From Richelia sp. SL_2_1 (lineage in GTDB: Bacteria; Cyanobacteriota; Cyanobacteriia; Cyanobacteriales; Nostocaceae), in NCBI GenBank assembly GCA_012033205.1, contig JAAUSO010000022.1, forward strand, positions 1 to 58,995: a DNA stretch of 58,995 nucleotides, read 5' to 3'. Of this stretch, positions 16,295-42,341 are shown piece after piece. The notes below the pieces were generated by a model. It was not told the DNA's origin. It was given only the letters and a program-made list of their open reading frames with translations, and made no database searches. The position numbers were made by a program, and so were the translations under genes. Every line of letters starts with the position of its first letter. The first letter of the stretch is position 1.

Positions 16295-16444
16295 ATGACT
16301 GACGAAAATATCAGACAGATAGCATTCTACGGTAAAGGCGGTATCGGTAAGTCCACCACATCTCAGAATACTCTTGCAGCTATGGCTGAGATGGGAAAAA
16401 GAATTATGATCGTAGGTTGTGACCCTAAAGCTGATTCCACCCGT
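16295..16444 (+). CDS. nifH: nifH fragment 1 (codons 1-50)
   Basis: The N-terminal 50 residues of dinitrogenase reductase, the Fe protein that delivers electrons to MoFe protein with ATP hydrolysis. It has the standard start [20 protein letters not shown] with the P-loop, and [10 protein letters not shown] with the switch I aspartates. At CGT (Arg 50) the frame enters element A and reads RDIIGDT... to a stop at 16513. CAGGAG sits 6 bp before the ATG. The next codon (Leu) is at 18188 after the right repeat. Confidence 0.98.
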
Positions 16445-16478
16445 GATATTATTGGAGACACCTTAGTAAAACAAAGTT

Positions 16479-17865
16479 ATGAAAGTTGGTTACGTGCGAG
16501 TTTCGACGTTTGAGCAAGGTGAATCCGATGCTCTTGAGCAACAAACGGCAAGGGTAAAGAAAGCGGGTGCTGTTCACATCTTCTCAGATATCGAATCCGG
16601 AAAATCGGATAAAAGAAAAAACTTTAATAAAATGATAGAACTTTGTGATGTGGGTGATATCACAGAAATCATTGTTACTCGCATTGACCGCTTATCTCGA
16701 TCTGTGATATCCCTTCATAAAACAATTGCAAAATTAGAACAATTGGGGGTAAAACTCAATATTATTGATGCACCAATTGACGATGTGAGTAGCCCGTTTG
16801 GATGGTTTTCGCTCTCCCAAATGGGTCAATTAGCTGAATTTGAGAGTAGATTGTTAAGTGCGCGAATAAACCACGGATTTGATTATTTTCGCGACCAAAC
16901 GAAAGCAGCACCGACTCCACCTTTCGGATATGCTCGAATCAATGAGAAATATGCACCCGATTTAGCATTAAATCAAAAAACGGGTTTGAGTAATTGGGAT
17001 GTAGCATTAGCACTGATTAATTATTTTTTATCTCCTAATTCCACTAGTCGCGGAACTATAAATTATTCACTAGAAAACTTTGGAAAACATGGACACAACC
17101 GGGTTTTCGTTACTGGATTCTTAATCCAGTTTTACGAGGTCATACCGTGTATCACGTTAGAAAATATAGAAATAACCCAGAAAATGGGATGTTCATGAGA
17201 ATACCCACACCCCTTTAATTTCAGAAGATATATATCTACTAATAAAAGAACGTTTTGATGAGAACCGGAATAAATATGCTTTTGGAAATAATAAAACACC
17301 AACAATTCAATTGCCGTTGCAAGGTCAGATGGTTTGTGGGTGTTGCGGTTACAAGTTATTTATAAAGAAAAATGGCGCATATAAAACGTACCGTGTGAGG
17401 TGTAAGAAGCGTGATACTTTAGGCGCAAAGTTTTGTACTAATAAAGTCGCGATACAATTGCATCTGGTAATCGCTGCCATAGATAAGAAGCTAAGAAGTA
17501 GGGCTGATGAGATTGCAAATTTCACAAAATTTACAACGCCGAAGAAACAAACAAACCCAGAAATAGTTTCTTTGACTAGTCAATTGACTTCATTAAAATC
17601 TTTACCCAAAAGCGAAATTATAGAATCGGCTATAAAACAGACACAACAAGAAATAAACCGACTCGAACAGCAAACAGAAATCACAAATAAACTCGATGAT
17701 AACCGAATCGAATTAGTACGAAATACTTTATGCAACCCCGATTACTGGGACGATTTACCAAACGGTGAAAAAATTATTATATATAAAAAGTTAGTGGATA
17801 ACGTTATGATACTCAATGGAAATATTTTTAGAAATCAACCTGCTTTTTTGATTGATATCTTTTGA
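16479..17865 (+). pseudogene. Large serine recombinase of element A, frameshifted
   Basis: The first frame (16479-17198) encodes the resolvase domain: [10 protein letters not shown] with the catalytic Ser, TRIDRLSRS, then LAEFESRLLSARINHG and FGYARINEKY. Homology to the recombinase at 42408-43778 then moves to another frame around 17095-17110 (RYWILNPVLRGHTVYHVRK) and again at about 17180 (WDVHENTHTPLIS), and continues in the frame 17311-17865 with the zinc-ribbon CGCCGYKL and a coiled coil. At least two single-base indels are needed to rebuild it. It would be about 460 aa if intact. Either decayed or affected by sequencing errors; this decides whether element A can excise itself. Confidence 0.85.
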
Positions 17866-17996
17866 TGTTGTAATTTGAATTCATCCTCATGTAAAGCCAT
17901 TAAATACTTTCGTTGAGATTGAGGAAGATGTTTTATTTTATTGAAGCGTTCGCAAGTGCGTACTAATATTTCACCAAGAGTTTCTACAGTAGACAT
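17835..17996 (-). CDS. Small antiparallel ORF, candidate recombination directionality factor
   Basis: A 53-aa ORF read against the recombinase, starting MSTVETLGEILVRTCERF and containing HLPQSQRKYLMAL. Its last 31 bp overlap the recombinase 3' end. Elements C and D have ORFs of 60 and 49 aa in exactly the same position and orientation, and C shares the pattern (D/E)IL...R(F/Y)...LP..xR. Serine recombinases need a small accessory protein to switch to excision, so this is a reasonable candidate. No family recognised; could be chance, but three out of three is notable. Confidence 0.5.
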   Translation of the reverse strand: MSTVETLGEILVRTCERFNKIKHLPQSQRKYLMALHEDEFKLQHQKISIKKAG

Positions 17997-18005
17997 ACTT
18001 AAATG

Positions 18006-41615: not shown

Positions 41616-41695
41616 GGAGGAAAGATATTTTTTTAACGCAAAGGTGCGCGGAGTTGAGCGCAAAGGTACGCAGAGGGGAAGAAAGGAGTTTATTT

Positions 41696-41932
41696 ATGTT
41701 GAATAAAAAGAAGTTTTTAGCAAGTATGGTTGGAGTGGGGTTTTTTCTCTGGGTTGTTTCAGGGGAAGCTTTGGCTCAAATGCATCTAGAAATGCCTGTT
41801 TCTCAAGAAAATATCCAATTTCAAGCCATTGAGCAACCTTTGGGATTAAAAATTGTGGTTACTTTGGGTGGTATTGGTTTGATTGGATTGGAGTTGTGGT
41901 GGTTTCTTTTGAGTAAGTCTAAAACCAATTGA
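41696..41932 (+). CDS. Small secreted/membrane protein downstream of the copper ATPase
   Basis: 78 aa from the ATG at 41696 with GAAAGGAG upstream. An N-terminal signal-like segment (KKKFLASMVGVGFFLWVVSG then EALAQ), a short Met/His part (MHLEMPVSQ) and a C-terminal membrane helix (VVTLGGIGLIGLELWWFLL). Small Met/His-containing membrane proteins of this kind commonly follow copper ATPases in cyanobacteria; a metal-handling role is inferred. It ends 25 bp before the right att core of element C. Confidence 0.6.
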   Translation: MLNKKKFLASMVGVGFFLWVVSGEALAQMHLEMPVSQENIQFQAIEQPLGLKIVVTLGGIGLIGLELWWFLLSKSKTN

Positions 41933-41957
41933 AAATGTTTTTTGGTGGTAGTTAGCG

Positions 41958-42341
41958 GTATGTGGCGGTTTCGCTATGCCTATTCGTGAAGGTAAAGCAC
42001 AAGAAATCTACATCGTGACTTCCGGTGAGATGATGGCAATGTATGCTGCTAACAACATTGCTCGTGGTGTTCTTAAGTATGCTCACTCCGGTGGTGTACG
42101 TTTGGGTGGTTTGATTTGTAACAGCCGTAAAGTTGACCGAGAAATCGACTTAATCGAAACCTTGGCTGAACGTTTGAACACTCAAATGATTCACTTCGTA
42201 CCTCGCGACAACATTGTACAACACGCTGAATTGCGCCGTATGACTGTTAACGAGTACGCACCCGATAGCGCACAAGCTAAAGAGTACGCTGCGTTAGCTG
42301 AGAAAATCGTTAACAACAAAACCTTACCATTCCTACACCTT
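41958..42341 (+). CDS. nifH: nifH fragment 4 (3' end missing)
   Basis: After the shared core VCGGFA the gene continues [60 protein letters not shown], up to [10 protein letters not shown]. Then one A seems missing near 42327 (CTTACC for CTTAACC): in the raw frame it reads PFLHL and stops at 42344; in the corrected frame it reads TIPTP, as expected, and family homology ends at about 42341. The last about 30-35 residues of NifH are not found anywhere in the window. This is the left edge of a fourth interruption or of a rearrangement. Confidence 0.95.

Follow-up and report, generated by a model that had tools for sequence, protein, structure and literature searches.

The window, by which we mean the whole 58995-bp stretch of DNA that was analysed, is the complete contig C305 of a draft genome (7.55 Mb in 359 contigs, 98.3% complete). 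The host is a Rivularia-like cyanobacterium, and the names of its near relatives, Rivularia and Richelia, suggest that it comes from the heterocyst-forming group. Open reading frames, Pfam matches and HMM matches give the order of nif genes in the window as nifB, fdxN, nifS, nifU and nifH, and both nifB and nifH are interrupted. The features are as follows.

9565-9794, plus strand: 5' piece of nifB (start codon at 9565 or 9589; nifB HMM positions 2-27 at 9721-9798; supported by an empty site in a relative, locus L009)
9795-11669, plus strand: nifB element, 1875 bp, with a tyrosine recombinase ORF at 9899-11296
11659-12921, plus strand: 3' piece of nifB, an open frame (nifB HMM positions 21-439, 650 bits)
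13153-13503, plus strand: fdxN, one open frame (Pfam and gene order; named by position)
13730-14938, plus strand: nifS, one open frame (named from its Pfam match and gene order)
15128-16024, plus strand: nifU, one open frame (named from its Pfam match and gene order)
16295-16444, plus strand: nifH piece 1, codons 1-50 (Fer4_NifH; tblastn)
16445-18187, plus strand: nifH element 1 at the codon-50 site, 1743 bp; repeat ATTCCACCCGT at 16434-16444 and 18177-18187
16479-17865, plus strand: XisF-like serine recombinase S1, in three frames with two slips (parts 16479-17198 and 17311-17865; frames read by eye)
18188-18341, plus strand: nifH piece 2, codons 51 to approximately 101 (repeat borders; tblastn)
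18342-34215, plus strand: nifH element 2 at the codon-101 site, 15874 bp; repeat CCTGGTGTAGGTTGTG at 18326-18341 and 34200-34215
32699-34087, minus strand: XisA-like tyrosine recombinase T2, 58% identical to the nifB-element enzyme
34216-34329, plus strand: nifH piece 3, codons approximately 102-139 (repeat borders; tblastn)
34330-41976, plus strand: nifH element 3 at the codon-139 site, 7647 bp; repeat GTATGTGGCGGTTTCGCTA at 34311-34329 and 41958-41976
34366-35808, plus strand: serine recombinase S3, XisF family (NF041201, 437.6 bits; cut-off 375)
36518-37066, 38202-38696 and 39360 to approximately 41615: element 3 cargo, respectively MntP-like, DUF305 and a heavy-metal P-type ATPase (with frame slips)
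41977-42345, plus strand: nifH piece 4, codons 140 to approximately 261 (one-base frame slip near 42320)
42346-58995, plus strand: left 16.65 kb of nifH element 4 at the codon-261 site; repeat ACACCTTTAGA at 42335-42345 and on contig C118
42402-43778, plus strand: serine recombinase S4, XisF family (NF041201, 527.7 bits; cut-off 375)
45549-46199, 46321-47370, 48149-50011 and 51393-52415: element 4 cargo, respectively FolE, a CobW-family protein, ThrS and HemB
53092-54315, 54504-56621, 56803-57870 and 57941-58969: further element 4 cargo, respectively an IS605 OrfB-like protein, a Na/H exchanger, FecCD and a substrate-binding-like protein (weak)

An initial annotation had described nifH as at least four pieces separated by 1743, 15874 and 7647 bp and bordered by direct repeats of 11, 16 and 19 bp. 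We reproduced all of these positions, lengths and spacings; the split is real, and its extent was understated, as five pieces were found. Piece 4 is not the end of the gene. A one-base frame slip falls in an A run near 42320; beyond it, similarity to NifH continues to approximately 42345, and a fourth element begins at 42346. The C-terminal piece, the sole match to a C-terminal NifH peptide query, lies immediately upstream of nifD on the 7714-bp contig C118, and the 11-bp word ACACCTTTAGA recurs at the start of this piece. When pieces 1-4 are joined across their repeats, tblastn follows one NifH frame up to approximately codon 256, as had been claimed; joining element 4 at its own repeat gives the correct C-terminal frame locally, with the one-base slip upstream. 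Identity of the pieces to Anabaena 7120 NifH ranges from 89 to 98%. We read nifH as five pieces separated by four putative elements, three of the XisF-type serine class (codons 50, 139 and approximately 261) and one of the tyrosine class (codon 101). A search for an uninterrupted second nifH, the check that the annotation had proposed, found no other nifH in the assembly (98.3% complete); the next match, at 219 bits, is identified as chlL (484.6 bits; cut-off 345), and the genome has no further strong NifH-like match.

The direct repeats that border the four nifH elements measure 11, 16, 19 and 11 bp. As a chance control, shared words within 60 bases on either side were sought at 19659 pairs of randomly chosen places in the window: 118 pairs shared a word of at least 11 bases, one pair a word of at least 16 and one pair a word of at least 19. 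The border copies of the nifB element, TATGCAAGAAT and TATGCAAGGAT, are not identical and differ by one mismatch in 11.

The annotation had also proposed a mixture of serine and tyrosine systems, and this was borne out, with XisF-type and tyrosine recombinases adjoining the borders. S3 is 93% identical to the enzyme at the codon-139 site of a genome of the same genus (G186), and S4 is 93% and 84% identical to the codon-261-site enzymes of G186 and of Richelia sp. UBA3308 (G188), respectively. The two halves of S1 score 275 and 140.8 bits against the XisF family NF041201, each below the cut-off of 375; compared with the intact codon-50-site gene of G186, their identities are 76% and 72%. Elsewhere in the genome, the gene closest to S1 shares 44% identity with that G186 counterpart. 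Of the three elements described as complete, element 1 is doubtful, as its recombinase is frame-broken in this sequence, and a fourth element exists. T2 has no Pfam or NCBIfam family match at E 0.001, and the Phage_integrase match of the nifB-element enzyme falls slightly below the Pfam cut-off. In an alignment of 14 sequences, R282, Y374-R377, H400 and Y409 of T2 are invariant; these are presumably the R, YxxR, H and Y residues conserved in tyrosine recombinases. The predicted structure of T2 has a mean pLDDT of 81.7 and a pTM of 0.52, and a Foldseek search with it returned a XerA-type recombinase as best match (E 3.6e-4) along with Tn1549 Int and Cre, all with low TM-scores. The predicted fold and the catalytic residues mark T2 as a tyrosine recombinase, probably XisA-like.

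Trees were built from 21 serine and 22 tyrosine enzymes, and the program warned of long branches meeting between the more distant groups. The serine enzymes group by nifH site: the codon-139 group (seven rows, including G190 at codon 136) and the codon-261 group (four rows) each require one change in all bootstraps, and the codon-50 group (five rows) likewise requires one change, with weaker support (91/90). The closest enzyme to T2, at 63% identity, is at the codon-66 site of G188. In the tree, T2 falls with the enzymes found at codon 66 in G188 and G190 (support 96/96), so the element at codon 101 may have come later from that branch; no partner of T2 at its own codon-101 site was found. The enzymes at nifB, nifK, nifD and nifH codons 12, 66, 101 and 163 form one nine-row tyrosine group (support 100/99), in which several elements are approximately 2 kb long and have room for little except a recombinase. 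The repeats of the tyrosine elements were examined by eye for a common core, and none is claimed.

Elements 2, 3 and 4 carry further genes or open reading frames. Beside its recombinase, element 2 holds approximately 14 kb of ORFs (18342-32600), of which eight tried had no Pfam match and ten tried, in an overlapping set, had no PHROGs match. Elements 3 and 4 both contain metal-handling genes; the cargo of element 3 includes the MntP-like manganese efflux gene, the DUF305 gene and the heavy-metal P-type ATPase gene. The folE, CobW-family GTPase, thrS and hemB genes of element 4 make up a set that corresponds to zinc-starvation (Zur) paralogues in Anabaena. Two more copies of thrS lie elsewhere in the genome; therefore, the loss of this thrS on excision need not be lethal.

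Unoccupied versions of these sites occur in a relative. In Rivularia sp. T60_A2020_040 (L009), nifB is uninterrupted and nifH codons 1-139 are whole. Empty-site alignments covered the nifB element and nifH elements 1 and 2: when the window flanks are joined at one repeat copy, they align to L009 without gaps at 98% (nifB), 94% (element 1) and 95% (element 2). These L009 sites are natural empty counterparts for three of the five elements considered, and they support repeats 1 and 2 independently. The nifH of this relative (genome G189, by its coordinates) is still split at the codon-139 site, with its two pieces 25.6 kb apart, and the codon-139 recombinase (L009, 11551-11819) has been deleted down to approximately 83 residues. 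G186 carries elements at the same nifH codon-50, 139 and 261 sites; element 2 is missing from both G186 and L009. On its contig C250 (L103, 1236-14326), the middle nifH piece of G186 is inverted relative to its neighbours, with breakpoints within elements 1 and 3 and no convincing inverted repeats at those breakpoints.

The right end of the window overlaps the end of C118: the final 237 bp are 99% identical, and the two single-base differences both fall in T runs. In G186, a nifH piece that ends at the codon-261 site (C250, 13943-14326) and the C-terminal piece (at 34130) lie on one contig, and the cargo of the element at this site is 93% identical to that of element 4 over the 2.76-kb stretch compared. 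Because the contig ends overlap by 237 bp and G186 has both flanking nifH pieces on a single contig, we take element 4 to span C305 and C118, for a total of approximately 17980 bp as added by hand across the two. A third copy of the overlap, 85% identical, is present on C75, and this copy, together with the imperfect C305-C118 overlap, counts against the five-piece join. A draft of 359 contigs could also contain unrelated contigs wrongly joined inside nifH, and the inverted middle piece of G186 and the opposed nifE pieces of the present genome on contig C270 (see below) are what such errors might look like. Nevertheless, for three of the four elements the same sites are occupied by homologous recombinases in other genomes, the repeats are exact, and a relative has empty sites, all of which make an assembly artefact very improbable.

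Given that the gene is in pieces, we asked how its codons have changed. Over 252 codons, nifH differs from that of G186 by 28 synonymous and 2 non-synonymous changes (dS 0.185, dN 0.0034), and over 139 codons it differs from L009 by 16.8 synonymous and 6.2 non-synonymous changes (dS 0.197, dN 0.020). Against the intact genes of L012 and L015, dN is 0.046 and 0.058 and dS is 0.96 and 0.73, respectively. These values indicate that the nifH pieces are under purifying selection, and because G186 shares three of the interruptions, this selection most likely acted while nifH was already in pieces.

The opposite reading is that nifH is dead: with S1 broken, not all elements could be removed, nifH itself has slipped, and nitrogen fixation would have been lost or be declining. 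S1 lies in more than one frame and has no close intact paralogue in the genome, the shortened codon-139 recombinase of T60_A2020_040 would fit a decaying system, and nifH shows more amino-acid change against L009 than against G186. The frame slips themselves number two in S1, two in the element-3 ATPase (relative to G186) and one in nifH. However, the nifH slip and one ATPase slip fall in A runs, and the C305 and C118 copies of the overlap differ only in run lengths, so the slips are probably sequencing errors; for the other ATPase slip and both S1 slips, G186 is too divergent for the bases to be placed exactly. The small number of non-synonymous changes against G186 and the open frames of nifS, nifU and the long nifB piece likewise speak against a dead gene, and we consider this reading unlikely.

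A gene in pieces whose junctions restore the reading frame could also be joined at the level of RNA or protein, through introns, inteins or split proteins. Here the interruptions have long direct repeats, which are no requirement of introns or inteins, and site-specific recombinases beside each border. Moreover, no Rfam family, intron or other, was matched in the window at the gathering threshold. Joining of this kind, as opposed to DNA excision, thus seems hardly credible.

The remaining reading, that nifH elements 1-4 are heterocyst interruption elements excised during development by four separate, non-nested systems, is in our judgement highly likely. Removal of the elements restores the frame, the borders are direct repeats with a recombinase alongside, and the recombinases cluster with those at the same site in other genomes (codons 50, 139 and 261), as for known xis elements. 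Each element has its own pair of direct repeats and its own recombinase beside one border. In a future heterocyst, each recombinase would join its own two repeats and the intervening DNA would leave as a circle, with one repeat copy staying behind as coding sequence. Since each of the four repeats has a sequence of its own, no cross-reaction between the systems is expected. Four excisions in any order would yield a continuous nifH adjoining nifD. From the sequence, we infer that excision takes place, that it is confined to heterocysts and that the circles are lost.

The interruptions extend beyond nifH. In addition to nifB, which is split by the 1.9-kb tyrosine element, HMM matches place nifD in three pieces, nifK in three and nifE in two, partly on different contigs and with recombinases beside the breaks. 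Counted together, five nif genes have at least ten breaks (nifB 1, nifH 4, nifD 2, nifK 2, nifE 1). The first nifK break has a 13-bp direct repeat; direct repeats of at least 8 bp were not found at the two nifD breaks. The two nifE pieces lie in opposite orientation 64 kb apart on C270 (84210-84776, plus strand; 19676-20470, minus strand), and those of G185 lie in direct orientation 29 kb apart. The opposite orientation reflects either a misassembly or an arrangement in which inversion instead of excision would rebuild the gene. There is perhaps an even chance that an XisA-like branch radiated through the nif cluster in the Rivularia lineage and that, with the XisF-type elements, a working locus would require approximately ten programmed recombinations per heterocyst, possibly including an inversion. 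NtcA boxes (GTA-N8-TAC) are no guide in the window, where 14 were found and 12.4 were expected. We also considered whether the elements pick unusually conserved bases of nifH, using 23 intact nifH genes, and found no support for the idea: mean conservation is 0.890 at seven sites and 0.864 at random ones, and 13% of 20000 random placements score as high.

To gauge how common a split nifH is, we surveyed 217 genomes of the family, the present one included, of which 177 have a nifH match over the cut-off. The search for pieces covered only the 40 genomes without such a match. At least three nifH pieces were found in 11 of the 40, five of them of this genus and six of one other genus. The genus members are the present genome (G000), G186, G188, G190 and G191, or five of the eight searched; in the fragmentary assembly of G191 and in some others the pieces lie on separate contigs, where contig breaks may inflate the count. 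In G185 and G189, nifH is in two pieces, and G187 has a nifH over the cut-off. Two genomes, the present one and G188, have at least five pieces, in a search that can miss very short pieces and that sought the C-terminal piece in six genomes only. Among the pieces listed for the remaining 39 genomes that lack an intact nifH, none breaks at codon 101. The nifH of G188 is in eight pieces on four contigs (seven mapped, the eighth from a C-terminal search), with breaks at seven sites near codons 12, 49, 66, 120, 139, 163 and 261. Its four measurable elements (L100, L101 and L102) are approximately 1.9 to 2.1 kb long, with room for little beyond a recombinase. The annotation had called the interruption of nifH exceptional. 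Genes with several elements and both recombinase classes, already in print, and the counts within the genus, with one member at eight pieces, temper that description.

If all four excisions are required, each heterocyst would have to complete four independent recombinations for its iron protein and more for the other nif genes. A single gene would then allow programmed DNA excision to be measured in its order, efficiency and control, and the question arises why selection tolerates such a load. In addition, surveys of nifH that rely on PCR or assembly can overlook or misread strains with a split nifH.

Several known systems come close to the locus. As in the fdxN-element XisF family (NF041201), S3 and S4 exceed the family cut-off and S1 is homologous in two halves; the target in the window is nifH, not fdxN. 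As with XisA and XisC of the nifD and hupL elements, the tyrosine recombinase T2 adjoins one border of an element that interrupts a nif gene, but the site of T2 is nifH codon 101. The nifH of Richelia sp. UBA3308 shares the codon-50, 139 and 261 sites, with recombinases homologous to those of the window, and differs in having eight pieces at seven sites as opposed to five pieces. A literature search, with most subscription journals outside its reach, found no published nifH in five or eight pieces. In the portions of Hilton et al. 2016 (PMC4874684) used here, 101 interruption elements are reported from 28 genomes, with 48 serine and 52 tyrosine enzymes; 19 of the elements, in six variants, are in nifH, and ten genes have multiple elements, among them one nifD with four (Rivularia sp. 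PCC 7116). The nifH positions 150 and 405 given there lie close to the repeats of element 1 (nt 140-150) and element 3 (nt 400-418), and the position-150 enzymes are serine recombinases, like S1. Relative to these two positions, the window nifH adds a tyrosine element at nt 289-304 and a serine element at approximately nt 780. In the same account, Rivularia PCC 7116 is the only organism whose own tyrosine enzymes (nifB and hupS) cluster together, and the radiation suggested by our trees for the present lineage would go beyond that. The nifD of Rivularia sp. PCC 7116 is the nearest parallel in that it holds four elements in one gene and belongs to a Rivularia, as does the near relative T60_A2020_040, although the gene is nifD and not nifH. 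Judged against the same portions of PMC4874684, the window nifH is a known kind of interruption, with an element count equal to that of the four-element nifD.
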